Positions 3,405 to 56,978 of a DNA stretch of 64,000 nucleotides are shown piece after piece. The notes under the pieces were generated by a model. That model was given only the letters and a program-made list of their open reading frames with translations, was not told the origin of the DNA and ran no database searches. The stretch spans positions 674,501 to 738,500 of the forward strand of contig NZ_AP019782.1 of assembly GCF_019669985.1 (NCBI RefSeq), given 5' to 3'. The DNA is from Methylogaea oryzae. Its GTDB lineage: Bacteria > Pseudomonadota > Gammaproteobacteria > Methylococcales > Methylococcaceae. Numbering within the stretch: the first letter of the stretch is position 1; each line of letters starts with the position of its first letter. The translations under genes and the position numbers were made by a program.

Positions 3405-4574
3405 ATGACAAAACCGTTGATTCAAATGGCGCTGGATTCCCTCGACGTCGAGCAGACCCTGAGGCTGGCCGCCCTTACCGCGCATTATGTGGACATCTTC
3501 GAAATCGGTACGCCCTGCATCAAGCATAACGGCATCGGCTTGGTGACCGAATTGAAGCGGCGCTTCCCCAACAAGCTCGTCCTGGTCGATTTAAAAACCA
3601 TGGATGCCGGCGAATACGAGGCGGCGCCGTTTTACGCCGCCGGAGCCGATATCTGTACGGTGTTGGGCATGTCCGGCTCCGCCACCATTGCCGGCGTCAT
3701 CAAGGCCGCCAAAGTCCATGGCGGCGAAGTTCAGGTCGATTTGATCAACGTGCCGGACAAAGTCGCCTGCGCACGGGAAGCCGCCCGCTTGGGGGCGCAT
3801 ATCATCGGCGTGCATACCGGGTTGGACGCCCAAGCGGCGGGCCAGACGCCGTTCGCCGACTTGCAGGCCATCGCTCGCTTGGGACTGAATATGCGGTTGT
3901 CCGTTGCTGGCGGCATCAATCAATCCACGGTGCAACAGGTGGCGAAAGTCGGCGCGGATATCGTCGTCGTCGGCGCGGCCATTTACGGCGCCCCGTCCCC
4001 GGCCGAGGCGGCGCGGGAGATTCGCGATACCGTGGACGGTAAGCATCGGCAGTTGATTTTGCAGAAGATTTCCGGGGTCCTCGGCGCCACGGATCGTAGC
4101 TATAGCTCCAGATTGTCCAGGCTGCTCGACCAGTCCTCCCGCACGTTTGTCGCCGGGGCGGGCCGTTCCGGGTTGGTCGCCAAGTTCTTCGCCATGCGGT
4201 TGATGCACGGCGGCTTCGGCGCCTACGTGGTGGGCGAGGTGGTGACTCCCAGCATTCAGCGCGGCGATTTGCTGATCGTCATTTCCGGCTCCGGCGAAAC
4301 GGAGACGATTTTGGCCTATACCAAAAAAGCCAAAGAGCAGGGCGCCACCATCGCGTTGATTTGCACCAAGGCCAGTTCCACCATCGGCGACTTGGCCGAC
4401 GTGACGTTCCAGATCGGCAACGCCGATCAATACAAAAAGGTGGTGGGCATGCCCATGGGTACCACTTTTGAGTTGTCCACCCTGTTGTTCCTCGAAGGCA
4501 CTGTCGCGCATATCATCCACAACAAAGGCATCCCCGAGGAAAAAATGCGCACGCGCCACGCCAATCTGGAATAA
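3405..4574 (+). CDS. hps-phi: Fused 3-hexulose-6-phosphate synthase / 6-phospho-3-hexuloisomerase
   Basis: A bifunctional ribulose monophosphate pathway enzyme of 389 residues. Residues 1 to about 205 form the synthase half (TIM barrel of the OMP-decarboxylase family; MALDSLDVEQ, LVDLKTMDAGEYE, GVHTGLDAQ, SVAGGIN), which joins formaldehyde to ribulose 5-phosphate. Residues from about 210 form a SIS-domain isomerase (FVAGAGRSG, VISGSGETE) that gives fructose 6-phosphate. Such fusions are known in methylotrophs and archaea. The start has GGAGC upstream. It stands alone here, followed by a strong terminator, with no other RuMP-cycle gene beside it. It is the main reason for calling the organism a methylotroph. 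Confidence 0.96.
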   Translation: MTKPLIQMALDSLDVEQTLRLAALTAHYVDIFEIGTPCIKHNGIGLVTELKRRFPNKLVLVDLKTMDAGEYEAAPFYAAGADICTVLGMSGSATIAGVIKAAKVHGGEVQVDLINVPDKVACAREAARLGAHIIGVHTGLDAQAAGQTPFADLQAIARLGLNMRLSVAGGINQSTVQQVAKVGADIVVVGAAIYGAPSPAEAAREIRDTVDGKHRQLILQKISGVLGATDRSYSSRLSRLLDQSSRTFVAGAGRSGLVAKFFAMRLMHGGFGAYVVGEVVTPSIQRGDLLIVISGSGETETILAYTKKAKEQGATIALICTKASSTIGDLADVTFQIGNADQYKKVVGMPMGTTFELSTLLFLEGTVAHIIHNKGIPEEKMRTRHANLE

Positions 4575-4615
4575 GCGCGTACCGCGCCGTCGGACCGGGT
4601 CCGGCGTCGGCGTGA

Positions 4616-4650
4616 AAAAGCCGGGGGCATTGCCCCCGGCTTTTGTTTTA
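4616..4650. terminator. Rho-independent terminator, usable from both sides
   Basis: A 13 bp perfect stem (AAAAGCCGGGGGC at 4616-4628 and its complement at 4632-4644) with a 3-base loop, flanked by A-run and T-run. It lies between convergent hps-phi and nadB and can serve both. Confidence 0.92.
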
Positions 4651-4670
4651 TGGGCGTCGGTTTGGCGCGT

Positions 4671-6293
4671 TCAGGGAAGCGGGACATGGCGCTCGCCGGG
4701 CGTGAGCACCGTGTTGCGCGGAGGCTGGCTGTCGTCGGGGTGCGGATAATCCAAGGTGAAATGCAGGCCGCGGCTTTCCTTGCGCCGCATGGCGCTGCGG
4801 ATGATGAGCTCGGCTACGATAACCAGGTTGCGCAGCTCCAGCAGGTCGCTGGTCACCTTGAAATGGCCGTAGTATTCGGCGATTTCTTTTTTCAGCAGTT
4901 CGGCGCGGTGCAGGGCGCGCTCCAGCCGCTTGTCGCTGCGCACGATGCCGACGTAATCCCACATGAATTGACGGATTTCGTGCCAGTTGTGGGCGACCAC
5001 CACTTCTTCGTCCGAATCGGTCACCTGGGATTCGTCCCAATCCGGAAGTTCCGGCGGCGGCGGGGTGTCCGCCAGCCGGGCGGTAATGTCGTCGGCGGCT
5101 TGCTTGGCGAAAACCAAGCATTCCTGCAGGGAGTTGCTGGCCAGGCGGTTGGCGCCGTGCAGGCCGGTGCAGGCGGTTTCGCCGATGGCGTAGAGTCCGG
5201 GCAGGCCGGTGCGGGCTTGCCGGTCGGTCACCACGCCGCCGCAGGTGTAATGGGCCGCAGGCACCACGGGAATGGGCTGCCGGGTGATGTCGATGTTGAA
5301 GTCCAGGCAACGGCGGTAGATGGTAGGGAAGTGGCTTTGCACGAATTCAGCCGGCTTGTGGCTGATGTCCAAATACACGCAGTCGATGCCCAGGCGCTTG
5401 ATTTCGTGGTCGATGGCCCGCGCCACGATGTCGCGCGGCGCCAGTTCGCCGCGCGGGTCGAAATTCTGCATGAAGGGCGTGCCGTCCTGCAGCAGCAGAT
5501 GGCCGCCTTCGCCGCGTACCGCTTCGCTGATGAGGAAGGAGCGGGCTTGCGGGTGGTATAAGCAAGTGGGATGGAATTGGATGAATTCCATGTTCGCCAC
5601 CTGGCAGCCGGCGCGCCAGGCCAGGGCGATGCCGTCGCCGGTGGCGACGTCCGGGTTGCTGGTGTAAAGGTACACTTTGCTGGCCCCGCCGGTGGCCAGC
5701 ACCACCATTTTGGCGCGGAAGGTGGTTATCCGGTGGCTAGCCGTGTCCAGTACGTACGCTCCCAGCACCCGGTCGTTGGGAAGCCCTAGCTTGGCGGCGG
5801 TTATCAGGTCGATGACGTTGTGGTTTTCCAGCAAGTCGATGTGGGGTTGGGCCTGCACCCGATGCTGCAGGGTGGTGGACAACGCTTGACCGGTGGCGTC
5901 GGCGGCGTGCGCCACCCTTCGGTGCGAGTGGCCGCCTTCCCGCGTAAGGTGCAAGTGGCTGGCTCCCTGGGTGTCCCGTTCCTCGGTGAAGGGCATGCCT
6001 TGCTGGATCAGCCAGTCGATGCACTGGCGGCCTTGCGATACCACCAGTTTGACGGTGTCCTCGTCGCACAGGCCGGCGCCGGCGACCAGGGTATCGTGGA
6101 TGTGGGAGTCGATGGAGTCGTGCGCGTCCAGCACCGCGGAAATGCCGCCTTGGGCGTGGTAGGTATTGCTGTCTTGCAGCGACGCCTTGGCCAGCACGGC
6201 GATGCGCATGGATGGGGGTAAGCGCAGCGCCAGGCTGAGGCCCGCGGCGCCGCTGCCGATGATTAGTACATCATAATAAGGATGGGCGGACAC
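4671..6293 (-). CDS. nadB: L-aspartate oxidase
   Basis: A flavoenzyme that oxidises L-aspartate to iminoaspartate, the first step of NAD synthesis de novo. The N-terminal [18 protein letters not shown] is the FAD dinucleotide fold. [26 protein letters not shown] and AAHYTCGGV are family signatures, and the sequence aligns with E. coli NadB over its whole length. The reading frame is open to 6383, but those extra residues have no counterpart. I place the start at GTG 6293 (540 residues), 9 codons before the FAD motif. No nadA or nadC lies beside it. It diverges from rpoE across a 185 bp gap. Confidence 0.95.
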
Positions 6294-6478
6294 TCTGGGT
6301 ATATGCTGACAGTTGGGCTGGGGTGATTGCGGGTGGCGCGTTGAATGGCGCTGGCCAAACGATGATAATGTAATGTATCGCAAAAACTAATGCCGAGGAA
6401 AACGCTATTGTGCCGGTTGCGAAATAATTGCTGTTTTACTTCGGCGAGGCGTAATCGGTTGGTCGGCGCGCATTTCCA

Positions 6479-7078
6479 ATGAATCGGCCCCTGGAAGCGG
6501 AGGATGCCGGAGAGGCCCTGGACGGCGAACTGGTCGCTCGAGTTCAGGCGGGCGACAAGAAGGCCTTCGATTTGTTGGTGCTCAAATACCAGCATCGCAT
6601 CGTTCAGGTCGTCAACCGCTATATCAAGGATCCGTCCGAGTCCCTGGATGTGGCCCAGGACGCCTTTATCAAGGCCTATAGGGCGTTGCCCGGTTTTCGC
6701 GGCGAGAGCGCTTTTTTCACTTGGCTGTACCGTATCGCCATCAATACGGCCAAGAACCATCTCGCCATGCGCGGGCGTCGCCCGGCCGATGACGACGTGG
6801 GTGTGGAAGATGCGGAACAAATGGAGTCCGCCGTCCGTCTAAGAGACAACGAAACGCCCGAAGGATTGGCTCTCACAGAAGAATTGGGCGAGGCGGTGCG
6901 CTCCGCCATAGAGGATTTGCCGGAGGATTTGCGCACGGCCATCAGCCTGCGGGAGCTGGAAGGACTCAGCTACGAGGAAATCGCCGAGGTGATGCAATGC
7001 CCGGTGGGGACTGTGCGTTCGCGTATATTTCGAGCCCGCGAGTTCATCGATAAGCGGTTGCGTCCGCTGTTGGATTAG
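6479..7078 (+). CDS. rpoE: RNA polymerase sigma-E factor (RpoE/AlgU)
   Basis: An ECF sigma factor of 199 residues for the envelope-stress response. Region 2 runs from about residue 18 (VRAGDKKAFDLLV-like, VVNRYIKDPSESLDVAQDAF) and region 4 from about 135 (LPEDLRTAISLRELEGLSYEEIAEVM and PVGTVRSRIFRARE). It begins the classical rpoE-rseA-rseB-rseC-mucD array, in which RseA/RseB hold it inactive until proteolysis at the membrane. Sigma-E usually controls its own promoter, but I could not find a convincing GAACTT/TCTGA pair in the gap upstream. Confidence 0.97.
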   Translation: MNRPLEAEDAGEALDGELVARVQAGDKKAFDLLVLKYQHRIVQVVNRYIKDPSESLDVAQDAFIKAYRALPGFRGESAFFTWLYRIAINTAKNHLAMRGRRPADDDVGVEDAEQMESAVRLRDNETPEGLALTEELGEAVRSAIEDLPEDLRTAISLRELEGLSYEEIAEVMQCPVGTVRSRIFRAREFIDKRLRPLLD

Positions 7079-7103
7079 TTTGATTCATTGAACGTGGTGG
7101 AAG

Positions 7104-7649
7104 ATGGAAAACCAAGACGAAAAAGTTAGTGATCCCGCGTTGCAGCGGCTTTCCCTGTTGATGGACGACGAATTGGGATCGTTCGAGGCCGGCCAGTTGT
7201 TGTCGCGCATGGGCGACGACGAGGCGTTGCGTGCTTCCTGGCAGCGTTATCACCTGATTCGCCAGGGTTTGCGTGGCGGCACGGCGCTCTTGGCCGACGA
7301 GGATTTCGCGCAGCGGTTGAGCCAGCGCATGGCCGCGGAGCCGGTTTTCCTCGGTTCGCAACGTAAGCGGCGCGAGTGGCTCAAGCCGGCCGGCGGCCTG
7401 GCTTTGGCGGCGGCGATTTCCGCTCTGGCGGTATTGGGCATGAAGGAATACGGCGTCGGCTCCCTGCCTTATTCGTCGGATCGTTGGGTGGCGGCCGGCG
7501 GTGTCGGCGGCGTTCAGCAAGCCGGCAACGGGCTGCTCTCGCCGGAGAAGCTGAACGAGTACCTGATTATGCACAATGAGGGCGTTTATTCGGCGGGAGC
7601 GGGTGAAATGCTGCCGCAATCGCGTGTGGTGAGCATCGTAAATCCTTGA
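7104..7649 (+). CDS. rseA: Anti-sigma-E factor RseA (MucA-like)
   Basis: A 181-residue inner-membrane anti-sigma factor. The N-terminal cytoplasmic domain (LSLLMDDELGSFEA, WQRYHLIRQGLRG) matches RseA_N, which binds sigma-E. One membrane segment lies at about residues 95-113 (GGLALAAAISALAVLGM). The C-terminal periplasmic part ends LNEYLIMHNEGVYS, as in MucA/RseA, where RseB binds. GGTGGAAG precedes the ATG. It begins 25 bp after rpoE and abuts rseB, consistent with one operon. Confidence 0.93.
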   Translation: MENQDEKVSDPALQRLSLLMDDELGSFEAGQLLSRMGDDEALRASWQRYHLIRQGLRGGTALLADEDFAQRLSQRMAAEPVFLGSQRKRREWLKPAGGLALAAAISALAVLGMKEYGVGSLPYSSDRWVAAGGVGGVQQAGNGLLSPEKLNEYLIMHNEGVYSAGAGEMLPQSRVVSIVNP

Positions 7650-8635
7650 GCCCGAACGTGTCCGCCGATATGGCTTCGCCGTCCCGGAGCATCTTTTTCG
7701 TCATCCGCTTGATGCTGTTGGTCTGTTGCTCCTGCTCGGCTTTCGTTGCCGCAGCCGAGGCGCCGCAGGACGCTCTGGGCTGGTTGACGGCGATGCGCGA
7801 TGCGCGCAAAAACCTCGATTTTACCGGTAAGGCGGCTTTGCTGCGCGACAGCCAAGTGCAAATCGTCGCCGTGGAGCACGCCGTCGTCAACGGCACCGAA
7901 CGGGAGTGCATGCACTCCTTGGATCAGCCCGGCCACGAGATCGTGCGGCAGGCCGGCAGTGCCACCTACTTTCTTCCCGAGGCGCAGCGTTCCGTGGCTG
8001 GCGGCAAGCCGCTGCGGGTGGACGGTCTCGGAACGTTGCCGGAGGATTTGGCCAGTTATCAGCGCTTTTATCGTTTCAACTTGGGCGCGAGAGAGCAGTT
8101 GATCGGCCGCTCGGTGCAGGAAGTGCTTATTGAGCCGCTGGACGAATACCGCTACGGCCGGCGTTATTGGATCGACGTGGACAGCAAGCTGCCCCTTAAA
8201 TACCAAGCGCTCAATGGCGAGCGGGTGCTGGAGCAGCTGGTGTTTTCCGAGCTGAGCCTGAACAAGGCTGCGGTGGGAACGTTTCCGGAACACAAAGCGG
8301 CGCCCTATGTGCAGGAAGCCCTGCCGCTGGAGTCGCTGCAATGGCGATTGGAGCGGGTGCCGCCCGGATACCGGCTGGTTTCCTATATGCGTCACAGCGC
8401 GCCGGGCAAAAAACCGGTGGAGCATCTCTTGCTTAGCGACGGCCTGTCGGCCTTGTCCCTTTATATCGAAGAAAGTGACGGCGCCGCCGGCTTGAAAAAG
8501 CAGGTACGGCATTTCGGCGCCATGCATTTTTATTCTCGGGCCATGAACGGCTATCAGATTACGGTGATGGGCGAGGCGCCGCTGGCGGCGGTGGGCCTGG
8601 TGGGTGACGGTGTTGAACGCGCGGAGCAACGGTGA
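7646..8635 (+). CDS. rseB: Sigma-E regulator RseB (MucB-like)
   Basis: A periplasmic protein that binds RseA and, in the known family, senses off-pathway lipopolysaccharide, shielding RseA from cleavage. The frame opens with TTG at 7646, overlapping the rseA stop by four bases (TTGA). An ATG at 7670 directly before the signal sequence (residues SIFFVIRLMLLVCCSCSAFVAAAE-like) is the other candidate and gives 321 residues. The mature part carries the MucB/RseB lipid-binding domain (LGWLTAMRDARKNLDFTG) and the C-terminal domain (MNGYQITVMGEAP near the end). It is followed at once by rseC. Confidence 0.92.
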   Translation: MSPNVSADMASPSRSIFFVIRLMLLVCCSCSAFVAAAEAPQDALGWLTAMRDARKNLDFTGKAALLRDSQVQIVAVEHAVVNGTERECMHSLDQPGHEIVRQAGSATYFLPEAQRSVAGGKPLRVDGLGTLPEDLASYQRFYRFNLGAREQLIGRSVQEVLIEPLDEYRYGRRYWIDVDSKLPLKYQALNGERVLEQLVFSELSLNKAAVGTFPEHKAAPYVQEALPLESLQWRLERVPPGYRLVSYMRHSAPGKKPVEHLLLSDGLSALSLYIEESDGAAGLKKQVRHFGAMHFYSRAMNGYQITVMGEAPLAAVGLVGDGVERAEQR

Positions 8636-9069
8636 TGTTGGAAGAGCAAGTGACGGTGACCGCGGTGGACGGGGCGACGGCCTGGGTGGAAGCCGCCGTG
8701 TCCCCTTGCGGCGGATGTTCGCAGGTCTGTTCCTCCGCTTTGCTGCAAAAACATTTGGGAAAGAATCGTGCGCCGCTGGCGGTCCGTTCGCCGTTGCTGC
8801 TTAAGCCGGGCGATCGGGTGGTGATCGGTATTGACGAAAGGGCACTGTTGTGGGGCTCCTTGCTGGTCTATGTGCTACCATTGTGCGGCTTGCTGGCGGG
8901 GGCTGTCCTCGCGGAATCGCTGGCGGTCGGCTGGGGCGGCATAGCGGATTGGCCGGCGCCTTTGGGCGGCGTGTTCGGTTTCGCTGTCAGCGTGGTTGCC
9001 GTCAAAAAATTACCTAAGCTGGGGGCGGCTGCCCTGCAGCCCGTGGTTCTCCGTAAAATTTCTCTTTAG
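8635..9069 (+). CDS. rseC: RseC/MucC family membrane protein
   Basis: A 144-residue inner-membrane protein of the SoxR-reducing system/RseC family. A cysteine cluster lies at residues 25-32 (CGGCSQVC), followed by two membrane segments (about 71-92 and 107-125). The ATG at 8635 overlaps the rseB stop by one base; a GTG one codon earlier is possible. Family members modulate sigma-E in E. coli and SoxR reduction, or sit with electron-transfer proteins. Its exact role here is inferred from the operon. Confidence 0.9.
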   Translation: MLEEQVTVTAVDGATAWVEAAVSPCGGCSQVCSSALLQKHLGKNRAPLAVRSPLLLKPGDRVVIGIDERALLWGSLLVYVLPLCGLLAGAVLAESLAVGWGGIADWPAPLGGVFGFAVSVVAVKKLPKLGAAALQPVVLRKISL

Positions 9070-9127
9070 ATACTTCTTCCTGCCGGCCGGGCTCCTCGGG
9101 CAGCCGGTGCGGACTTTAGGGCTCATT

Positions 9128-10528
9128 ATGCGTAAAGGTTTCGGAATCGTTGCCGGGATACTCGTCCTGGGATTGCTGGCGGCTGGCCCGGCCCGTGCCC
9201 AATTGCCGGATTTCACCGGATTGGTGGAAAAGAACAGCGCGGCGGTGGTCAACATCAGCACCACGCAAAAGATGTCTTCGGCCGAGCGTGAGTTGCCGGA
9301 CGGCATGGAACTGCCGGATGGCATTCCCAACGACGAGCTGTTCCGTCACTTTTTCGGCGACGGCGGCGGCGAACCCAGCGAAGTGCAGTCCTTGGGCTCC
9401 GGCTTCGTCATTTCCCAGGACGGTTACGTCATCACCAACCAGCACGTGGTGAAGGACGCCGACGAAATCGTCGTGCGCCTGTCGGATCGGCGCGAGTTGG
9501 TCGCCAAATTGATCGGCGCCGACAAGCGCAGCGATATCGCCTTGCTCAAGATCGACGCCGACAACCTGCCGGTGGTGCGCATGGGGGTGTCGGAAAGCCT
9601 GAAGGTGGGGGAATGGGTGCTGGCTATCGGTTCGCCTTTCGGCTTCGACCATTCCGTCACGGCCGGTATCGTCAGCGCCAAGGGCCGCAGCCTGCCCAGC
9701 GACAATTACGTGCCCTTCATCCAAACCGACGTGGCCATCAATCCGGGCAATTCCGGCGGGCCGTTGTTCGGCCTTGACGGTCGCGTGGTGGGCGTCAATT
9801 CGCAGATTTACAGCCGCACCGGCGGTTTCATGGGACTGTCTTTCGCCATTCCCATCGAAGTGGCCATGAAAGTGGTGGACCAGCTCAAGTCCCAAGGCTA
9901 TGTCTCGCGCGGCTGGATCGGTGTGCAGATTCAAGACGTGACGCGGGAGTTGGCCGAATCATTCGGTATGAACCGCCCCAAGGGCGCGCTGGTGTCCAAG
10001 CTGTTGCCCAAGAGCCCGGCGCAAGAGGCCGGTCTGCAAATCGGCGACATCATCGTCGAGTTCAACGGCCGCGAGATCGCCACCTCGGCTTCCCTGCCGC
10101 CCCTGGTGGGCATGACCGCGGTGGGCGACACGGCGAACCTCAAAGTGATACGCCAAGGCGAAACCAAACAACTGAAGATCAAGATCGGCATGTTGCCCGA
10201 CGAGGACCACCCGGTGGTCGGCATGCACAAAGCCCCCGACGTTGTGACCAACGCCCTGGGCATGGCGGTGTCGGACTTGAGCGCGGAGCAGCGCGCGCAG
10301 CTGGAAGTGGAGAAAAACGGCGTGCTGGTGCAGTCGGTCAAGGACGGCCCGGCTTACGATGCCGGCATCCGCAAGGGCGACGTGATTCTACGCATCCAGA
10401 ACGATACGATCCGCGACATGAAGCACTTCAACCAAGTGCTCAAGGACTTGCCGAAGAAGAAATCCATCGCGGTGCTGGTGCAGCGGCGCGGCGGCTCTTT
10501 GTTCCTGGCCCTTAAACTTCCCGATTAA
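9128..10528 (+). CDS. mucD: Periplasmic HtrA-type serine protease MucD/DegP
   Basis: A 466-residue periplasmic protease-chaperone that removes misfolded envelope proteins. The start ATG at 9128 gives a clean signal peptide (GIVAGILVLGLLAAGPARA, cleaved near residue 24); the frame is open further upstream but would run into rseC. The catalytic triad is visible: His in TNQHVVKDAD, Asp in SDIALLKID, and Ser in NPGNSGGPLF. Two PDZ domains follow (SRGWIGVQIQDV and the last 90 residues). It closes the rpoE operon, where MucD lies in Pseudomonas. Confidence 0.95.
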   Translation: MRKGFGIVAGILVLGLLAAGPARAQLPDFTGLVEKNSAAVVNISTTQKMSSAERELPDGMELPDGIPNDELFRHFFGDGGGEPSEVQSLGSGFVISQDGYVITNQHVVKDADEIVVRLSDRRELVAKLIGADKRSDIALLKIDADNLPVVRMGVSESLKVGEWVLAIGSPFGFDHSVTAGIVSAKGRSLPSDNYVPFIQTDVAINPGNSGGPLFGLDGRVVGVNSQIYSRTGGFMGLSFAIPIEVAMKVVDQLKSQGYVSRGWIGVQIQDVTRELAESFGMNRPKGALVSKLLPKSPAQEAGLQIGDIIVEFNGREIATSASLPPLVGMTAVGDTANLKVIRQGETKQLKIKIGMLPDEDHPVVGMHKAPDVVTNALGMAVSDLSAEQRAQLEVEKNGVLVQSVKDGPAYDAGIRKGDVILRIQNDTIRDMKHFNQVLKDLPKKKSIAVLVQRRGGSLFLALKLPD

Positions 10529-10546: not shown

Positions 10547-12349
<1,803 letters not shown>

Positions 12350-12365
12350 GGGGTTGGGTTTAGAG

Positions 12366-13157
12366 ATGCATGTCGACTTTTCCTTGTTTCTGGTGCTGGC
12401 CACGGCCGTGACCGGATTGGTTTGGGGGGGCTACGAGCTGATGCTCCGCTTGGGCTGGGCGCCGTCGTCCTCCGCTACGGGAGAGGAGATCGCGGAGCCG
12501 TGGCCGGTGGACTATGCCCGTTCGTTTTTCCCCGTCATTTTGATCGTGTTGTTGCTGCGCTCCTTCCTGGTGGAGCCGTTCCGCATTCCCTCCGCTTCCA
12601 TGATGCCGACCTTGTTGATCGGTGATTTCATCCTGGTGAACAAATTCGCTTACGGCATCCGCTTGCCGGTGCTGCGAACCAAGGTTTACGAGGTGGGTGA
12701 GCCGCAGCGGGGCGACATTGTGGTGTTCCGTTATCCCAAGGACCCGCGCATGGATTACATTAAGCGCGTTATCGGCTTGCCGGGCGACCGTATCGCTTAC
12801 TTCCACAAGCAACTGTACGTCAACGGCCAAGCGGTGCGGCAGACGCCCCTGGGCACCTACACCGGGGTGGGCAGCGGCCAGAGCATGACCGGCAATTTGC
12901 GCTTGGAAGAAGATTTAATCGGCGTCAGCCACGATATACTGATCCGGGAAGAGCAGCCCACGGTGGAAGGGGAGTTCGTGGTGCCGGCCGGGCGGTACTT
13001 CGTTATGGGCGATAACCGCGACAACAGCAACGACAGCCGTTATTGGGGCACGGTGCCGGAGGAGAATCTGGTGGGGAAGGCCTTCCTGATTTGGATGAAC
13101 TGGGATTGGGACAACCACGGCATCGCTTTCGAGCGCCTGGGCAATGTGCTGCACTGA
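12366..13157 (+). CDS. lepB: Signal peptidase I
   Basis: A 263-residue inner-membrane protease that removes signal peptides from exported proteins. Two membrane segments occupy about residues 4-25 and 57-73. The catalytic Ser lies in PSASMMPTL and the Lys in YIKRVIGLPGD; box E (GDNRDNSNDSR) is also present. ATG 12366 is chosen because it lies after lepA ends and starts the first membrane helix; the frame is open upstream inside lepA. It probably shares a transcript with lepA and rnc. Confidence 0.95.
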   Translation: MHVDFSLFLVLATAVTGLVWGGYELMLRLGWAPSSSATGEEIAEPWPVDYARSFFPVILIVLLLRSFLVEPFRIPSASMMPTLLIGDFILVNKFAYGIRLPVLRTKVYEVGEPQRGDIVVFRYPKDPRMDYIKRVIGLPGDRIAYFHKQLYVNGQAVRQTPLGTYTGVGSGQSMTGNLRLEEDLIGVSHDILIREEQPTVEGEFVVPAGRYFVMGDNRDNSNDSRYWGTVPEENLVGKAFLIWMNWDWDNHGIAFERLGNVLH

Positions 13158-50774: not shown

Positions 50775-50829
50775 GTTCCGTTCAAAATGATTCGAAGAGT
50801 GTTGGTATGGCCGGAGCGGCATTCCGGCG

Positions 50830-51939
50830 CTAACCGGCTGCGCGCCGACCGGGCGCGTCGGCGCTCGGCGCGATGTCGGCGAGGCCGTCTCCGGAGGGCG
50901 CCGCCGTGGCGACGTAATGGCTGCTGCGAAGCAGAAACCTCTTTTCAACCCAATGCCACATCGCAACGGCGCCCGTTAAGGTGATGGCGACGACCGCGCC
51001 CAGGAATATCCAAGGGTTTTCTCGAAACCAGCCGCCGTGCAGCAGCAACTGAATGGTAGGAAAGTGCAGGATATATACGCCGTATGAAAAATCGCCGTAT
51101 TTTCCGAAGTTGCCGGCGTAAAAAAATAGACCGAAGAAGACGACCAGCGTGGCGAGCGCGAAAGGCTCAAGCAACGGCAGCGGATAAAACCCATTGGCGA
51201 CCAGCGCTATAACGGCCGCGAAAACAAAGCGCTCCACGTGTCGTTCGAATACCGGAAGATAATAATAAAAGAAAGCGCCGGCCATGAAATAAGACAGTTG
51301 TCCGGGGAGCTGGCGGCTGAGTTCGGCATAAATCCCCGAGCCGCTGCGTTCCGCCATCAGCGCGCACAGCAGCGCATAAACCGTCGATAAACCGTAAACG
51401 GAGGCGAGCACGGGAAGTCGGCCGAATCGTCGCGCTAAAAACGCGAGTAAAGGCACTGCGACGTAGAACATGACTTCGATTTTCAGGGTCCAAAGCGCCC
51501 CGTTGACGACAGCCAGCTTATTCGCCTCGAACACCCCCGGCAGCGTGGGCTGGATGAAATTCAGGAAGGTAAGGTTCGCGAGAACGTACTTCAGCCATGC
51601 GAGGGTGAAATAGTCCGCAATACCCTTGTCGCTGGCCCACAGCAGCCCTATCGCGCATAGCATGACGACCGTGAAATAGGCGGGATAAATTCGCCGGGCG
51701 CGCTTGCCGGCGTAGGAGGACAAGGACGAGGAGCGTTCGAAGCTCATGAAAATCAAGAAGCCGCTGACGACGAAAAACGCTTTTACCGCAACCGCCGACG
51801 ACAAATAGCCAACGACCGCTGCAAGCGCTTGGTATCCGGACAGTTCGTAGGCGTGAACCAGGCAAACGGTGCCGGCGAACAGGAGGCGCAGCAAATCGAA
51901 GTTGTTTTTTGCCAGCCGTTGGCTGTTTTGCGGAAGCAA
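50830..51939 (-). CDS. Acyltransferase 3 family membrane protein
   Basis: A 369-residue protein with about ten membrane helices, of the OafA/NodX acyltransferase group. The N-terminal segment FDLLRLLFAGTVCLVHAYEL carries the conserved Arg and His, and VVSGFLIFMSFERSS follows. The start is TTG 51939, with AGGAG upstream. It probably transfers an acyl group onto a surface polysaccharide or lipid; the substrate is unknown. It stands alone between tadA and yjdM, and its codons look lower in GC than those of its neighbours. Confidence 0.88.
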   Translation of the reverse strand: MLPQNSQRLAKNNFDLLRLLFAGTVCLVHAYELSGYQALAAVVGYLSSAVAVKAFFVVSGFLIFMSFERSSSLSSYAGKRARRIYPAYFTVVMLCAIGLLWASDKGIADYFTLAWLKYVLANLTFLNFIQPTLPGVFEANKLAVVNGALWTLKIEVMFYVAVPLLAFLARRFGRLPVLASVYGLSTVYALLCALMAERSGSGIYAELSRQLPGQLSYFMAGAFFYYYLPVFERHVERFVFAAVIALVANGFYPLPLLEPFALATLVVFFGLFFYAGNFGKYGDFSYGVYILHFPTIQLLLHGGWFRENPWIFLGAVVAITLTGAVAMWHWVEKRFLLRSSHYVATAAPSGDGLADIAPSADAPGRRAAG

Positions 51940-52163
51940 GTCAGGCTCCTAACCGTTGATTAAACCGGCGCCGTGTCGAACTTAAGGGCGGTGGCGCGTC
52001 GGCGCTGGTTTGCCGGCCATAGTGTCCCATACGGCGCGGTATTCATCAGTCGGAATCGTCCCGGCGATGGGAATAGGCGTTCGGCTTGCGCTTTTCAGGC
52101 GACGCCGATTGGACCCCGCGAAGCGGCAGGGCGTCCGCCCTCCCGCCGGCCACGAACTTGCCG

Positions 52164-52505
52164 CTAGGCTTTCTTGACGAATTCCGACTTCAACTGCATG
52201 GCGCCGATGCCGTCGATTTTGCAATCGATGTCGTGGTCGCCATCCACCAGGCGGATGTTTTTCACCTTGGTGCCCACTTTCACCACCAAGGACGATCCTT
52301 TCACCTTCAAGTCCTTGATGACGGTGACGCTGTCGCCGTCGCTGAGCGGGGTGCCGTAGGCGTCCTTGATCACCAAACCTTCCTCGGCAGTTTCCGCCGC
52401 CGCGTCTTTGCTCCATTCGTGGCCGCACTCGGGGCAGGCGTAGAAATCGCCGGATTCGTAGGTGTATTCGGAATTGCACTGCGGGCAACGGGGTAAATCG
52501 CTCAT
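52164..52505 (-). CDS. yjdM: YjdM/PhnA zinc-ribbon protein
   Basis: A 113-residue protein with a zinc ribbon (Cys7, Cys10, Cys24, Cys27) and the C-terminal PhnA domain ([43 protein letters not shown]). The name PhnA is historical; no phosphonate hydrolase activity is implied, and the function is unknown. AGGAGAC precedes the ATG. Confidence 0.93.
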
Positions 52506-52564
52506 GGGGTCTCCTGTGGTTGAGCTAGTGGATGGTGGGTTTGGGCGGGGAGTCGTTCCCTCGG

Positions 52565-53920
52565 TTATGGTTGTTGCATTGGTTGGTCAAGGTCGCCGAG
52601 GAGTTCGGCCAGTCGCCCGGTGATTTCGGCGAAAAAAGGCCGGCGTTCCGCTTTTTCGGACAGGCAAGCCGACTTCAAAGCGTCGAGAGCCTCCAACGTT
52701 TCCGGGTATTCGGGGAGTGCGTCGCAGCGGTCGAGCAATTCTTCCAATAGGCAGCCGAACGCCCGCACTTCCAGCCGCTCCAGCCCCTGGGCCAGCGCGC
52801 CGCCATCGGCGTGGTAAAAAGACGCCGCGCCGAAATCGCCGAGCAAAGCCCGGCCCCGGCCGCAATGGAGGATGTTATGGCCGTAAAGGTCGCCGTGCAT
52901 GATCCCCCGCTCGTGCAAATGCCGGGCGGCGGCAGCGATGTTGTGCGCGATATGCAGCGCCGTCGCCATATCGAAGCGGGTATCCGCGGGGTAAATATCC
53001 CTTGTGCAGGAATCGAAACTGGGCGGTCCGGCCAGGCGTTTGAAGTCCGGGCTTATCAGCTCCATGACCAAACCGCTGACGCCGGCCGGATGGCCGCTCA
53101 CCCTCCCGACAACGCCGATGAGACTCGGATGGCGGTCGGCGCCGATGGCGGCGGCCATTTCAGAGCACGGCAAGCCGTCGCTGGTGACCGCCCCCTTGAA
53201 CAATTTGACCGCGACGGGTTCCGCGGGCCCGTCGGCAGGCTGGTAGCTGGCGTGGTGGATAAAGCCCGAAGCGCCTTCGCCCAAGCGATGCTCCAACTCC
53301 AGGCTGTTCCAGGGAATATCGTCGATGGACAAAGCCGTCAGCGCCTGGGCTTCCGCTGCGGCGGCGCAGGGATTGCCGGAATAGGCCAGCCACGACAACC
53401 GCGGCAGCGCCAGCAGCCAGGCCGGCAATTCGGCGAGCCGATTGGCGGAAATGCGCAGCAATTCCAGGCGCTTGCAACGGGCCAGCGACCCCGGCAGCGC
53501 CTGCAGCCGATTGCCGGCCAGCATCAGCTTTTGCAGTTGGCTGCAGTGCCCGATCTCTTCAGGCAGCGCTTCGATTTCGTTGTCGGTCAGGATCAGCCAC
53601 CGTAACCGGCGTGGCAACGCCTGGGCCGTTATCGTGCGTATGCGGTTGGCTTTGAAGCCGACCATGCTCAGCTGCGGGCAACTGCCCAGCACTTCCGGCA
53701 GCTCCGTAAAGCGATTATCCGAGAAAAAAGCGATGCGCAGCTTGCCCAGGCGCGGCAGATCGTCGGGGAGCTCGGCCAGGGCATTGCCGGACAGATCCAA
53801 AATCTCCAGCGTATCCGCCAGATCGAAAATCTCCCGTGGAAAACTGGTCAAGCCGCAAGAGAGTTTCAGGCGGCGAACGCCGGCTAATTCCCCGGCACGG
53901 AGCTGGTCGAGTGTTTGCAT
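52565..53920 (-). CDS. Leucine-rich-repeat protein kinase
   Basis: A 451-residue protein. About seven leucine-rich repeats of 22-23 residues occupy residues 35-195 ([36 protein letters not shown] and others). A kinase-like domain follows from about 205: glycine loop [18 protein letters not shown] lysine, catalytic loop [11 protein letters not shown] and DFG in [10 protein letters not shown]. The catalytic-loop Arg is replaced by Gly (HGD), while Asp, Asn and DFG are retained. There is no signal peptide or membrane helix, so it is cytoplasmic. It resembles eukaryotic-type kinases sporadic in bacteria; the target is unknown. Confidence 0.88.
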
Positions 53921-54318
53921 CGGTCGAACTTACTCAGACGGCGCAGCGCGTTCCAATGGAAACTAGGCTGCGGGGGCCGGAACCGGCGGGATCGGCTTTT
54001 GGCAAAAAGCGCGGCGGCGATGGATAGGGCGCTATTTTAGCATGGTCGCGCCAGGAGCTGGCATGGACCGTCGTGGTCCGTCGGGAAAGCCGCCCCAGCG
54101 GTCGCCGGAATGCGGGGATTTCGCCGTGGTTCCTCGGACGATGGTTCAGTGAATCGCCGCGTTTAACCGATTCCATGCGAGGTGAGGGCGGGGTAGTGTG
54201 TTCGCGTCACCCGCCGTTTCGCGGATTCCGGCGGGTGACGGCTTCGGCCTATTCCCCCCTGCGTCCCTGGGGGCTATGCTTGATGGCGTTGGACCAATAC
54301 TCAAACAGGAGGAGTGCC
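53921..54318. other. Gap of about 400 bp upstream of the YkuD-like gene
   Basis: No supported gene. An 11 bp perfect inverted repeat (CGTCACCCGCC 54205-54215, GGCGGGTGACG 54230-54240) with a 14-base loop lies about 80 bp before the next start. It could be a hairpin in the leader. Confidence 0.5.
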
Positions 54319-55056
54319 ATGTCAGAGCAAGCCAACCATTCCGATAGCACCGCTTCCGGTACGGCGGCGGTGCTCCCGCCGCCGGTGGTTATTCACGTGA
54401 GCCTGCCCAGCGATCGCACCAGTACCGGCTTCATTATGCTGGTGGCCGGCGGCAAGACGCTGGCTGGGCCTTTCCGCGTGTTGGGCAAGGCGGACAACGC
54501 CATGGCCGCAAAAAAAGGCAATGCCACGCGCGATCCGAAGCAACCCTATGGCGATACTCCCACGGGGGAATATGCCGGAACGTTGGCGACACGGGGCAAG
54601 TCCTACGGTCCGCACGGCGTCATCGAAATGAGCCCGTCCTCCGGCGATGCGCTTACCGCCCAGAGCAACGGCAGGACGGGGTTGCTCATTCATAGCGGCG
54701 ACCTCAACAGCGAAGGCAAGCTGCGTCCCACTTACGGTTGCCTGCGGGTGTCCGACGACCACATGGAAGTCATCATGAACGTCTTGCGCGGTCGGACCAT
54801 AGACAAGATCAAGGTGCTGGAGAACGAGCCTCCGCCCATAAACGATCTGTCTCCATTGCCCGAGGCCGAATCCGCGGCCGTGGATGTGTGCGACCGGGAG
54901 GGCGGCGGCGAGTACATCGCCAATCTGCATACCGGCGAAGTGCATAACGCCAGCGATCCGTGCGCCTGGGTGCACTTGATTACGGACGAGCATCGCCAAT
55001 ACGTTTCCGGCCTGCCGGAAGGCTTCGACTGGTGCGGCCATTGCCGTATCGGTTGA
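54319..55056 (+). CDS. L,D-transpeptidase (YkuD-like) domain protein with cysteine-rich C-terminus
   Basis: A 245-residue protein with AGGAGG before the ATG. The motif LLIHSGDLNSEGKLRPTYGCLRVSDD holds the YkuD-type His and Cys (H..SYGCxR), and GDTPTGEYAGTL fits the same fold. No signal peptide is visible. The last 50 residues form a separate region (EYIANLHTGEVHNASDPCAWV, then FDWCGHCRIG), which resembles a small metal-binding tail of the kind found at the end of some effector proteins. Cell-wall cross-linking would need export by another route. I am sure of the YkuD-like motif, not of the role. Confidence 0.7.
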   Translation: MSEQANHSDSTASGTAAVLPPPVVIHVSLPSDRTSTGFIMLVAGGKTLAGPFRVLGKADNAMAAKKGNATRDPKQPYGDTPTGEYAGTLATRGKSYGPHGVIEMSPSSGDALTAQSNGRTGLLIHSGDLNSEGKLRPTYGCLRVSDDHMEVIMNVLRGRTIDKIKVLENEPPPINDLSPLPEAESAAVDVCDREGGGEYIANLHTGEVHNASDPCAWVHLITDEHRQYVSGLPEGFDWCGHCRIG

Positions 55057-55120
55057 CGGTTGGGGGCGCTGGCCGCCGTTAGGCTATCCCTTCGCCAACC
55101 GCAGCTCAGGTGGCTGCATG

Positions 55121-55152
55121 GCCCCTGGCATCGGATTTCCGATGCCAGGGGC
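55121..55152. terminator. Strong hairpin, possible terminator of the YkuD-like gene
   Basis: A perfect 14 bp stem (GCCCCTGGCATCGG 55121-55134 and complement 55139-55152) with loop ATTT. The following AAGTGTTTGTG is only weakly T-rich. Confidence 0.6.
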
Positions 55153-55444
55153 AAGTGTTTGTGAGTAGCCGAAGCTGCCCTCTAGGTCAGTTCGCCCGGT
55201 GTGGATCGGACCTCACCGGTCACTTCTTTGTGTCGGCCAGGCACTGAGCCCGCTTCCCCGCTTCCTTTAACGAAAAAGCCCCAGCGGACTGCCTTTCAGG
55301 GCGCTGCTATGCAGACCCTGGAGAAAAGGCAAACCCGTCGGGGCGATTGGTCGGACTCTTAACCTGTAACGGAGAAGGGGCGGGGGAGGGAAGAAAAAGC
55401 CGCCGGCGGCGGGCCGCGGACGGGCTTTTCAGGCTGTCGGTAGG

Positions 55445-55474
55445 AATTACGCGCATACGCGTATGCGCGTAATT
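55445..55474. repeat. Perfect 30 bp palindrome
   Basis: AATTACGCGCATACG joined directly to its exact complement (15+15 bp, no spacer). Such CG/TA-rich palindromes are found as operators of toxin-antitoxin or phage regulators and at recombination sites. It lies 60-100 bp before a decayed recombinase gene. Confidence 0.75.
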
Positions 55475-55484
55475 GAGAAGCCAT

Positions 55485-55507
55485 CTATCCACAGAAACTG
55501 TGGATAA
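55485..55507. repeat. Inverted pair of DnaA-box-like sites
   Basis: TATCCACAG (55486-55494), AAA, CTGTGGATA (55498-55506). TGTGGATAA at 55499-55507 is a perfect DnaA box on the minus strand; CTATCCACA at 55485-55493 differs by one base. Confidence 0.55.
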
Positions 55508-55549
55508 CGTCGGGGAAGGTCATGTGGAAAGGCACGGCTGACGCGGGGT

Positions 55550-55902
55550 TGAGGTGGTGGCTAGATGGTGGGCGGTGGTGGCGCTACGGGCCTGGCTGGA
55601 CGCTGCCGGCATCGTGGAGGGGCCGGTGTTCCGCGCCATCGGCAAAGGCGGCCGGGGGGCGACACCCTGTCGGACAAGTCAGTGGGGGAACTGGTGAAGG
55701 CCTACGCCGGCAGGGCCGGACTGAATCCGGCCGAGTTCGGCGGCCATAGCCTACGGGCCGGGTTCGTTACCTCGGCGGCTGAGGCTGGCGCGTCGATTTT
55801 CAAAATGGCGGATTGAGCCGCCACAAATCGACGGATGTGCTGGCCGGCTATGTGCGGTCGGCCAACCTGTTCAAAGACCATGCGGGGGCTGGATTGCTGT
55901 AG
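55550..55902 (+). pseudogene. Tyrosine recombinase/integrase remnant, C-terminal part
   Basis: Pieces of one integrase are spread over three frames. First: ALRAWLDAAGIVEGPVFRAI (about 55578-55640). Second, after a shift near 55660: LSDKSVGELVKAYAGRAG and GGHSLRAGFVTSAAEAGASI (to about 55813), containing the HxLR motif. Third, after another shift near 55815: RHKSTDVLAGYVRSANLF (with the HKS histidine and the catalytic-tyrosine GYVR), ending at a TAG at 55900-55902. At least two frameshifts, a stop at 55814, and loss of the N-terminus make it non-functional. Confidence 0.85.
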
Positions 55903-55923
55903 CCCTCGGCTAGTTAGCTAGCG

Positions 55924-56712
55924 TCACCCAGGGCGCAAAAGCTGCTGCATGGCGTCCTGGCTAATTGGGGCGAGAGCAGCAATGGCATTCGCAGTGTTCA
56001 CGGTCAACCCGCTTAGCGACGGCCGCTCTTCTGTAGCCGCTAAGTCTACTTTGTTCTGGTTGGTATTGGCCCCACCTTCTGTGGGTTCTTGCCCGGTTTG
56101 CCCTGCGCCGGCATTTGCACCAGTAAAATCACCAATATTCAAGGACATCCCTGCGCCGGCAAGCATGTTTGCAGTGCCGGCTCCCGTCGTTTGTTGGGAT
56201 CGTTGGGTAATATTGGGATCAGACGACCGATCAATTGAACCACTCGGGGTTTGCCCAAGCTGGGCTGTACTAGCAAAGGTTTTGGCAAACCGTGTGATTT
56301 CAGATGAGTAATCGAAATCCCGAACGTTTGCACCCTCTACCCCTCTTTGGTCCGTTCCACCGGCAGCCAGAGCCGCGCCAGTCGCCGAAATAGTGGCGGT
56401 CACTCCATTGTCACCAAACGTCGTGCCAACCGCGTCTCCGACCTTGGTTTCTTCGGCATTGGTCGTCGTTATGGATTGGCCTGAGCCGATCAGCTGCAGC
56501 CTTTGCTGCCCCGAGCCTAGCTGCTGAAGTCCGTCCTGCGCCGTTGTTCCAGTCGTTGCGTCATCGGCCGCCTTGTTGAGCTTGCTGCCTGAGCTGAGCC
56601 GTTCCATCTGTTGCCCCGAGCCTAGCTGCTGCTGAAGCCTGGCCTGCATCTGGTAGGCAGCGTAATTGCGTATAGCGGCATTGTTGAGCTGGACACTGGA
56701 CATGGCGTTCAC
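55924..56712 (-). CDS. Hypothetical low-complexity protein with flagellin-like N-terminal segment
   Basis: A 262-residue protein rich in Gln, Gly, Ser, Thr and Ala. Residues 36-52 (MERLSSGSKLNKAADDA) resemble the flagellin N-terminal motif RLSSGxRINxAxDDA, but the C-terminal flagellin domain is not evident and Cys/aromatic residues are scarce. LGSGQQ occurs twice and is encoded by an exact 20 bp DNA repeat. No signal peptide is present. Base composition is lower in GC than the surroundings and it adjoins a recombinase remnant. I do not assign a function. Confidence 0.5.
   Translation of the reverse strand: MNAMSSVQLNNAAIRNYAAYQMQARLQQQLGSGQQMERLSSGSKLNKAADDATTGTTAQDGLQQLGSGQQRLQLIGSGQSITTTNAEETKVGDAVGTTFGDNGVTATISATGAALAAGGTDQRGVEGANVRDFDYSSEITRFAKTFASTAQLGQTPSGSIDRSSDPNITQRSQQTTGAGTANMLAGAGMSLNIGDFTGANAGAGQTGQEPTEGGANTNQNKVDLAATEERPSLSGLTVNTANAIAALAPISQDAMQQLLRPG
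56507..56526. repeat. 20 bp direct repeat, copy 1
   Basis: TGCCCCGAGCCTAGCTGCTG, repeated exactly at 56612-56631, inside the low-complexity gene. It encodes the repeated QLGSGQ peptide. Confidence 0.85.
56612..56631. repeat. 20 bp direct repeat, copy 2
   Basis: The second exact copy of the repeat at 56507-56526, 105 bp apart start to start, a multiple of three, so the frame is kept. Confidence 0.85.
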
Positions 56713-56830
56713 CCCTGCTTTTTTTATTGGATTTTCTCTATCCTGCCATAAATGGCAGTAAAAGCCACAAGAAATTTGCGAAGCGTGTCACTGTTGTTGG
56801 TGGTGTTTGCCAATAAGCAGGCGGTCCAGG

Positions 56831-56850
56831 GCCTGCACTTGAGTGCAGGC
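56831..56850. repeat. Palindrome GCCTGCACT-TG-AGTGCAGGC
   Basis: A perfect 9 bp inverted repeat with a 2-base centre in the 266 bp gap between guaA and the low-complexity gene. It could be a protein-binding site or part of a decayed terminator; no T-run follows. Confidence 0.5.
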
Positions 56851-56978
56851 ATCGCCGAATGATGGGTTTGGCGCCGGTGTGAGCCTATGCACGCTCGTTG
56901 ATTCTCCCAAGACGAGCGGCAATTGTTCCCAGAGTGCGGCCCTTGATACAGTTTGACGCGGCGTGAGACTAGGCCAAT

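Follow-up and report, generated by a model that had tools for sequence, protein, structure and literature searches.

BLRK is one of the 20 protein-kinase-like families distinguished by Kannan et al. 2007 (PMC1821047) and counts fewer than 100 members; it is to ePK, pknB and HRK that the authors ascribe an extended activation loop. By that scheme (PMC1821047), RIO, Bud32 and Kdo kinases are kinase folds outside the families with the extended loop, as is the kinase described here. A bacterial kinase with leucine-rich repeats (LRRs), gi|9948555 of Pseudomonas aeruginosa, is reported by Krupa and Srinivasan 2005 (PMC1262709), and ours can be likened to it by description. LRRs are likewise joined to a kinase in plant LRR receptor-like kinases and in LRRK/ROCO proteins. 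RefSeq also carries a 'leucine-rich repeat-containing protein kinase family protein', for instance WP_089418300.1 from plasmid pVF1 of Vitreoscilla filiformis. No functional paper on the bacterial LRR-kinase family was among those listed in searches of the open-access literature, which mostly excludes subscription papers.

Here we analyze a gene of this kind from Methylogaea oryzae, contained in a window of 64,000 nt (the whole stretch of DNA studied). Its features are collected in Table 1. Pfam matches on the ORF include LRR_8 (1.1e-17), PK_Tyr_Ser-Thr (1.1e-13) and Pkinase (37.8 bits, cut-off 31.7). When Pkinase matches were ranked across the 4.02-Mb genome, this kinase was the lowest of eight at 36.1 bits, above the cut-off, with the top match at 193.6 bits. 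Read by eye, the LRR register resolves seven complete repeats (residues 15-174), followed by a final half repeat (residues 175-185); the repeats span 22-23 residues each and belong to the 23-residue class, their variable half containing LP. No membrane helix was detected, the 19-residue Kyte-Doolittle maximum being 1.16 at residue 267, within the kinase domain, and the initial annotation of an LRR kinase lacking such a helix is thus borne out. A sigma-70-like promoter for the gene was searched for and not found. Across the best 80 of 299 matching stretches, homologues were 61-74% identical over some 430-450 residues, nearly the whole length, and comparison with the Methylovulum copy over 445 codons gave dN 0.18 and dS 1.22. 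Because of these near-full-length homologues and substitution rates, the ORF is more than a product of chance. The gene is real and intact, and it encodes a soluble kinase joined to a repeat domain.

Table 1. Features of the LRR-kinase locus (positions in the window; residues of the LRR kinase)
Feature	Position	Strand	Evidence
Accessory-gene stretch between tadA and guaA, holding the kinase	50787..56978		guaA and tadA adjacent (<200 bp) in 7/14 related stretches
LRR-kinase gene (P0001)	52565..53920	-	open ORF, ATG start, 451 aa; Pfam and homologues
LRR domain, residues 15-185	53366..53878	-	Pfam LRR_8/LRR_4/LRR_14, register by eye, concave-face conservation, AlphaFold model
Kinase domain, residues 204-445	52586..53311	-	Pfam, AlphaFold model, PDB matches
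Glycine-rich loop GEGASG, residues 214-219	53264..53281	-	G214, G216 and G219 in 120/120
Beta-3 Lys, K239	53204..53206	-	120/120 sequences
Helix-C Glu, E254, after family-specific TSDGxP block (residues 246-251)	53159..53161	-	E254 in 120/120; block from alignment
Catalytic loop HGDLYGHN, residues 342-349	52874..52897	-	H342, G343, Y346, H348 and N349 in 120/120; D344 in 119/120
DFG, residues 362-364	52829..52837	-	D362 and G364 in 120/120
Shortened segment straight into helix F, residues 365-397, without APE at its end	52730..52828	-	20-24 residues from D362 to helix-F acid in 120/120; model helix 375-397
Tyrosine recombinase remnant (weak)	55565..55816	+	Pfam Phage_integrase E 0.024, below cut-off

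Set against the described systems, the Methylogaea kinase differs from plant LRR receptor-like kinases in having neither a membrane helix between LRR and kinase domains nor a hydrophobic N-terminus, and from LRRK/ROCO in giving no Pfam match to Roc or COR. Both of these groups also have the activation segment that it lacks. Unlike RIO, Bud32 and Kdo kinases, it keeps R427 (116/120 sequences) and a helix-F RA[FY]G motif, and its best matches are of the Tyr/Raf type. From WP_089418300.1, which is 50% identical over 96% of the query and across both domains, it differs by sequence divergence only, with no difference of kind seen. Since homology spans the LRR and kinase domains together, and relatives already carry a public family name, the protein is, as judged from sequence, a member of a known, little-studied family of soluble bacterial LRR kinases. 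We take the acronym BLRK to mean 'bacterial leucine-rich kinase'. The family studied here may be the BLRK of Kannan et al. 2007.

The gene is thinly scattered among close relatives and more frequent in the phylum. Counting its own genome each time, it was present in 3 of 61 near-relative genomes (and missing from the single genome of the same genus), in 9 of the 201 representing its order, Methylococcales, in 5 of 369 in the class sample and in 50 of 398 in the phylum sample. Within the order, identity among homologues went down to 45%. Relatives with names, among the best 80 of 299 stretches, include those from Burkholderia, Paraburkholderia, Massilia and Tolumonas, and also, at 62-63% identity, from Hymenobacter and Solirubrum. 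All full-length relatives found were bacterial; the collections searched comprised prokaryotes, phages, plasmids and viral contigs, with eukaryotes present only as PDB chains. Plasmid matches came from 15 records, of which 13 were called non-mobilizable and 13 exceeded 1.8 Mb. Phage records held no full-length relative (two matched the LRRs only), and none was found in viral contigs by a scan that reaches close relatives only. In three of the 50 phylum-sample genomes the gene looks broken, with a stop within the match in G870 and G902 (one TGA, one TAG) and split frames in G701, as expected of a dispensable gene. The match in G700 falls in two pieces within a single open frame.

To see which catalytic residues the family keeps, we aligned 120 sequences, namely that of the window and 119 further distinct homologues (124 loci, L010-L133, minus five exact duplicates). 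G214, G216, G219, K239, E254, H342, G343, Y346, H348, N349, D362 and G364 were invariant, and the catalytic Asp, D344, was kept in all but one sequence. The canonical ePK/PknB set of Gly loop, beta-3 Lys, helix-C Glu, catalytic Asp, Asn and DFG is therefore present. The canonical HRD Arg is absent, with Gly at its position in every sequence. Some plant receptor kinases are also non-RD. Where Ser/Thr kinases carry a Lys in the catalytic loop (K168 in PKA), the family has Tyr346, likewise in 120/120. In a PDB profile match, the catalytic loop aligned with that of FGFR1, with His348 opposite an Arg. These data agree with the initial annotation that the catalytic Arg is Gly while Asp, Asn and DFG are retained, and the residues kept fit its suggestion that the kinase may be active. 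Its claim of a retained Lys holds for beta-3 Lys K239 and fails for the catalytic-loop Lys, which is Tyr. Nor is HGD a special feature of this protein, being a trait of the whole family, one that is common in the phylum. Since the residues of the ATP site and of catalysis are conserved, the protein is predicted to be most likely active; a pseudokinase, too, might show the changes seen at HGD and at the catalytic-loop Lys.

What sets the family apart more clearly is the stretch after DFG, which the first reading overlooked. By an alignment-based count, only 20-24 residues separate the DFG Asp from the acid that starts helix F in 120/120 sequences. For comparison, the seven other kinases of the same genome were searched by pattern: L001-L003 had a distance of 39 and an APE-type motif; in L004-L006 the pattern did not reach helix F, an APE-type motif being seen in two of them and not in L006; and L007 was missed by the pattern search. 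An extended activation loop with APE was absent from all 120 family members, the APE strings of three sequences lying directly after DFG and not at a segment end. Thus the earlier claim that the kinase is not regulated through its activation loop is supported, yet the Gly is the lesser reason for it and the missing segment the better one. A catalytic loop HGDLY[AG]HN together with the short DFG-to-helix-F segment serves here as a family signature, as seen in our alignment and not as a published definition. Invariant family-specific loops, TSDGxP and one resembling PPSxxSCTRD, also lie inside the kinase domain.

The predicted structure agrees with this shortening. An AlphaFold model built from a 43-sequence alignment (pLDDT 94, pTM 0.92) starts helix F at residue 375, soon after DFG, and has two helices only beyond it, so helix G is probably absent. 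In the model, the LRR and kinase domains probably keep a fixed arrangement. A structural search returned the kinase fold, with a best row of Z 18.6 over 228 aligned residues at 3.2 A; all 50 rows examined fell on the kinase part, and the LRR part was barely probed. The best profile and fold matches were mostly Tyr- and Raf-type protein kinases. No PknB chain was among the best 60 PDB profile matches; the kinase may nonetheless be kin to PknB. At the sites where ePKs carry R280 and W-[SA]-X-G (PMC1821047), the family has R427, an Arg that precedes the last helix, and the helix-F motif R-A-[FY]-G, while the APE that is bound there in ePKs is missing. This is a hint that the segment was lost in descent from an ePK-like ancestor and was not absent from the start.

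We then asked whether the LRR domain is conserved in a manner that points to a binding surface. Concave positions were defined as repeat positions 3, 5, 7 and 8 (32 positions) and compared with 50 positions taken as otherwise exposed, using 62 sequences of <75% identity, all from within the family. The mean frequency of the commonest residue was 0.85 and the entropy 0.66 on the concave face, versus 0.58 and 1.81 elsewhere, and 0 of 20000 permutations were as extreme. F65, W108, T112, K131, L154, R156 and W177 reached a frequency of 1.00 and K90 reached 0.95, while repeat 1 was less conserved (0.40-0.66). Such a pattern would be expected if the face bound a conserved ligand, or if it made a conserved contact to the kinase domain; the concave positions may be conserved for packing on the kinase domain in cis.

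Genomic context offered little on function, as the initial annotation had found when it called the neighbours uninformative about a target. In the window, guaA and tadA are 6.2 kb apart and enclose a flagellin-N-like ORF, the recombinase remnant, a YkuD-like ORF, the kinase, yjdM and an acyltransferase. We located tadA in 21 genomes and compared the region in 14, where the two genes were adjacent in 7 and about 5 kb apart in 1, with guaA outside the compared stretch in 6. No conserved operon partner emerged: when neighbours from 81 regions were clustered, the window belonged, among the 25 largest clusters, to the kinase cluster only, and shared neighbours were seen solely among related Burkholderiales. 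yjdM, the YkuD-like ORF and the acyltransferase were near other kinases at 0 of 126 loci (34 of them ~4 kb, with short flanks). guaA or tadA lay near the kinase at only one of these 126 loci, many of which have short flanks. That locus is L016, a contig of a MAG that bears a betaproteobacterial name; its kinase sits immediately between the two genes (4329-8412), at the same junction as in the window, and the contig also has a Phage_integrase ORF at 11588-12664. In another genome (locus L144, genome G004, ~4440-9750), the junction holds three ORFs, by eye like sensor-kinase and response-regulator genes, and for this reason the guaA-tadA junction may be an insertion spot. No second copy of the recombinase remnant was found in the genome at E 1e-4, and a search for direct repeats at the ends of the insert found none that were convincing. 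Side features of the stretch include a 262-aa ORF at 55924-56712 (-), whose Flagellin_N match is weak (E 0.0021, below cut-off) and whose DNA contains internal repeats spaced by 105-108 bases; a 327-aa ORF at 54073-55056 (+) with a sub-threshold match to YkuD (L,D-transpeptidase); and two perfect inverted repeats at 55121-55152 and 55445-55474, with 15-base arms and 0-2 bases between.

The distribution of the gene is patchy, and its tree does not fit one inheritance within Methylococcales. A quick tree built from 82 of the 120 sequences, in which long branches call for caution, placed the window in a set of 12 together with Methylovulum and Tolumonas (SH-aLRT 100), whereas sequences from the same family (L011) and the same order (L097) were placed elsewhere. 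A single Methylococcales clade was rejected with p-AU 0.0098, or 0.039 without L097, a grouping chosen after the tree was seen. The initial annotation had named a wide vertical distribution in the order as evidence against its reading; carriage by 9/201 genomes is no such distribution. Base composition gave nothing foreign and no sign of recent transfer (GC 0.637 for the gene, 0.636 for the window). One further kinase, on a contig binned as Tardiphaga (Alphaproteobacteria; L015), falls inside the methanotroph and Tolumonas set, reflecting either recent transfer or misbinning.

On balance, we favour the explanation that the protein is a kinase active despite lacking the loop, that the conserved concave face of its LRRs is the docking site of a conserved partner, and that its gene was acquired by transfer. 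The kinase would bind Mg-ATP and transfer phosphate with no need of activation-loop phosphorylation. The partner, either a protein or a ligand, would dock on the basic and aromatic face formed by F65, K90, W108, K131, R156 and W177, and would supply the recognition that the P+1 loop and helix G give ordinary kinases. Horizontal arrival of the gene, into the guaA-tadA junction, is part of this reading and shares its somewhat better than even standing. A more specific version is possible but doubtful: the kinase would derive from an ePK, having secondarily lost activation segment and helix G, and an LRR-held partner would provide both substrate recognition and switching, making it a loop-less cytoplasmic receptor kinase transferred across phyla.

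Could the substrate instead be a small molecule? Without a P+1 loop and helix G, the enzyme might phosphorylate a metabolite, as the loop-less Kdo, aminoglycoside and choline kinases do, with the LRRs as regulator. Its missing activation segment speaks for this, as do the invariant TSDGxP and PPSxxSCTRD-like loops, the occurrence of the gene at guaA-tadA in two genomes, and a Kdo-kinase match (23.3 bits, cut-off 21.3) found in 35 of 43 members, although that match covers residues 318-351 only. We consider it unlikely, given that profile and fold searches both match Tyr- and Raf-type protein kinases best for the most part, that no metabolic neighbour recurs and that LRRs are known as protein-interaction domains (PMC1262709). 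Rather less plausible still is a pseudokinase that binds nucleotide without transferring phosphate, the kinase fold and LRRs together forming a nucleotide-gated scaffold. HGD for HRD, Tyr for the catalytic-loop Lys and the lack of an activation segment or APE would accord with it; yet K239, E254, N349 and D362 stand in 120/120 sequences and the catalytic Asp in 119/120. Pseudokinases are classed by the loss of at least one conserved motif (PMC4718504).

Two further proposals fare worse. A role as an anti-phage defence kinase is suggested by the patchy distribution, by PADLOC models (MADS6 at 52 bits and PD-T4-6 at 38.5 bits, with no printed cut-off), by a relative (L013, 7394-9274) beside RloB and an AAA_21 ATPase, and by one plasmid copy that has, no more than 5 kb away, a DEAD/DEAH helicase and an AAA ATPase. 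But the PADLOC matches fall on kinase-core residues only, as those of any kinase might, the NCBIfam MAD6 model scores 30.5 bits against a cut-off of 460, RloB occurs at 1 of 14 loci examined, and neither a full-length relative in phage records nor a close one in viral contigs was found; we regard this role as very improbable. Least credible, and barely worth entertaining, is an injected effector acting on eukaryotic hosts. The LRRs do match effector families such as XopAC, yet at 81.7 bits against an NCBIfam cut-off of 450 and with the best stretch in the LRRs, and no type III secretin exceeded its cut-off in the genome, nor in 14 control genomes, so that this search had no positive control. 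The gene is also present in Hymenobacter and methanotrophs, which are free-living.

The family itself was known; what merits attention is its missing activation segment and its invariant LRR face. The LRR-kinase family is widespread and conserved, and the invariant face gives a specific place to seek a ligand. If this kinase does function with no activation segment, it would offer a useful test of why other kinases need one.
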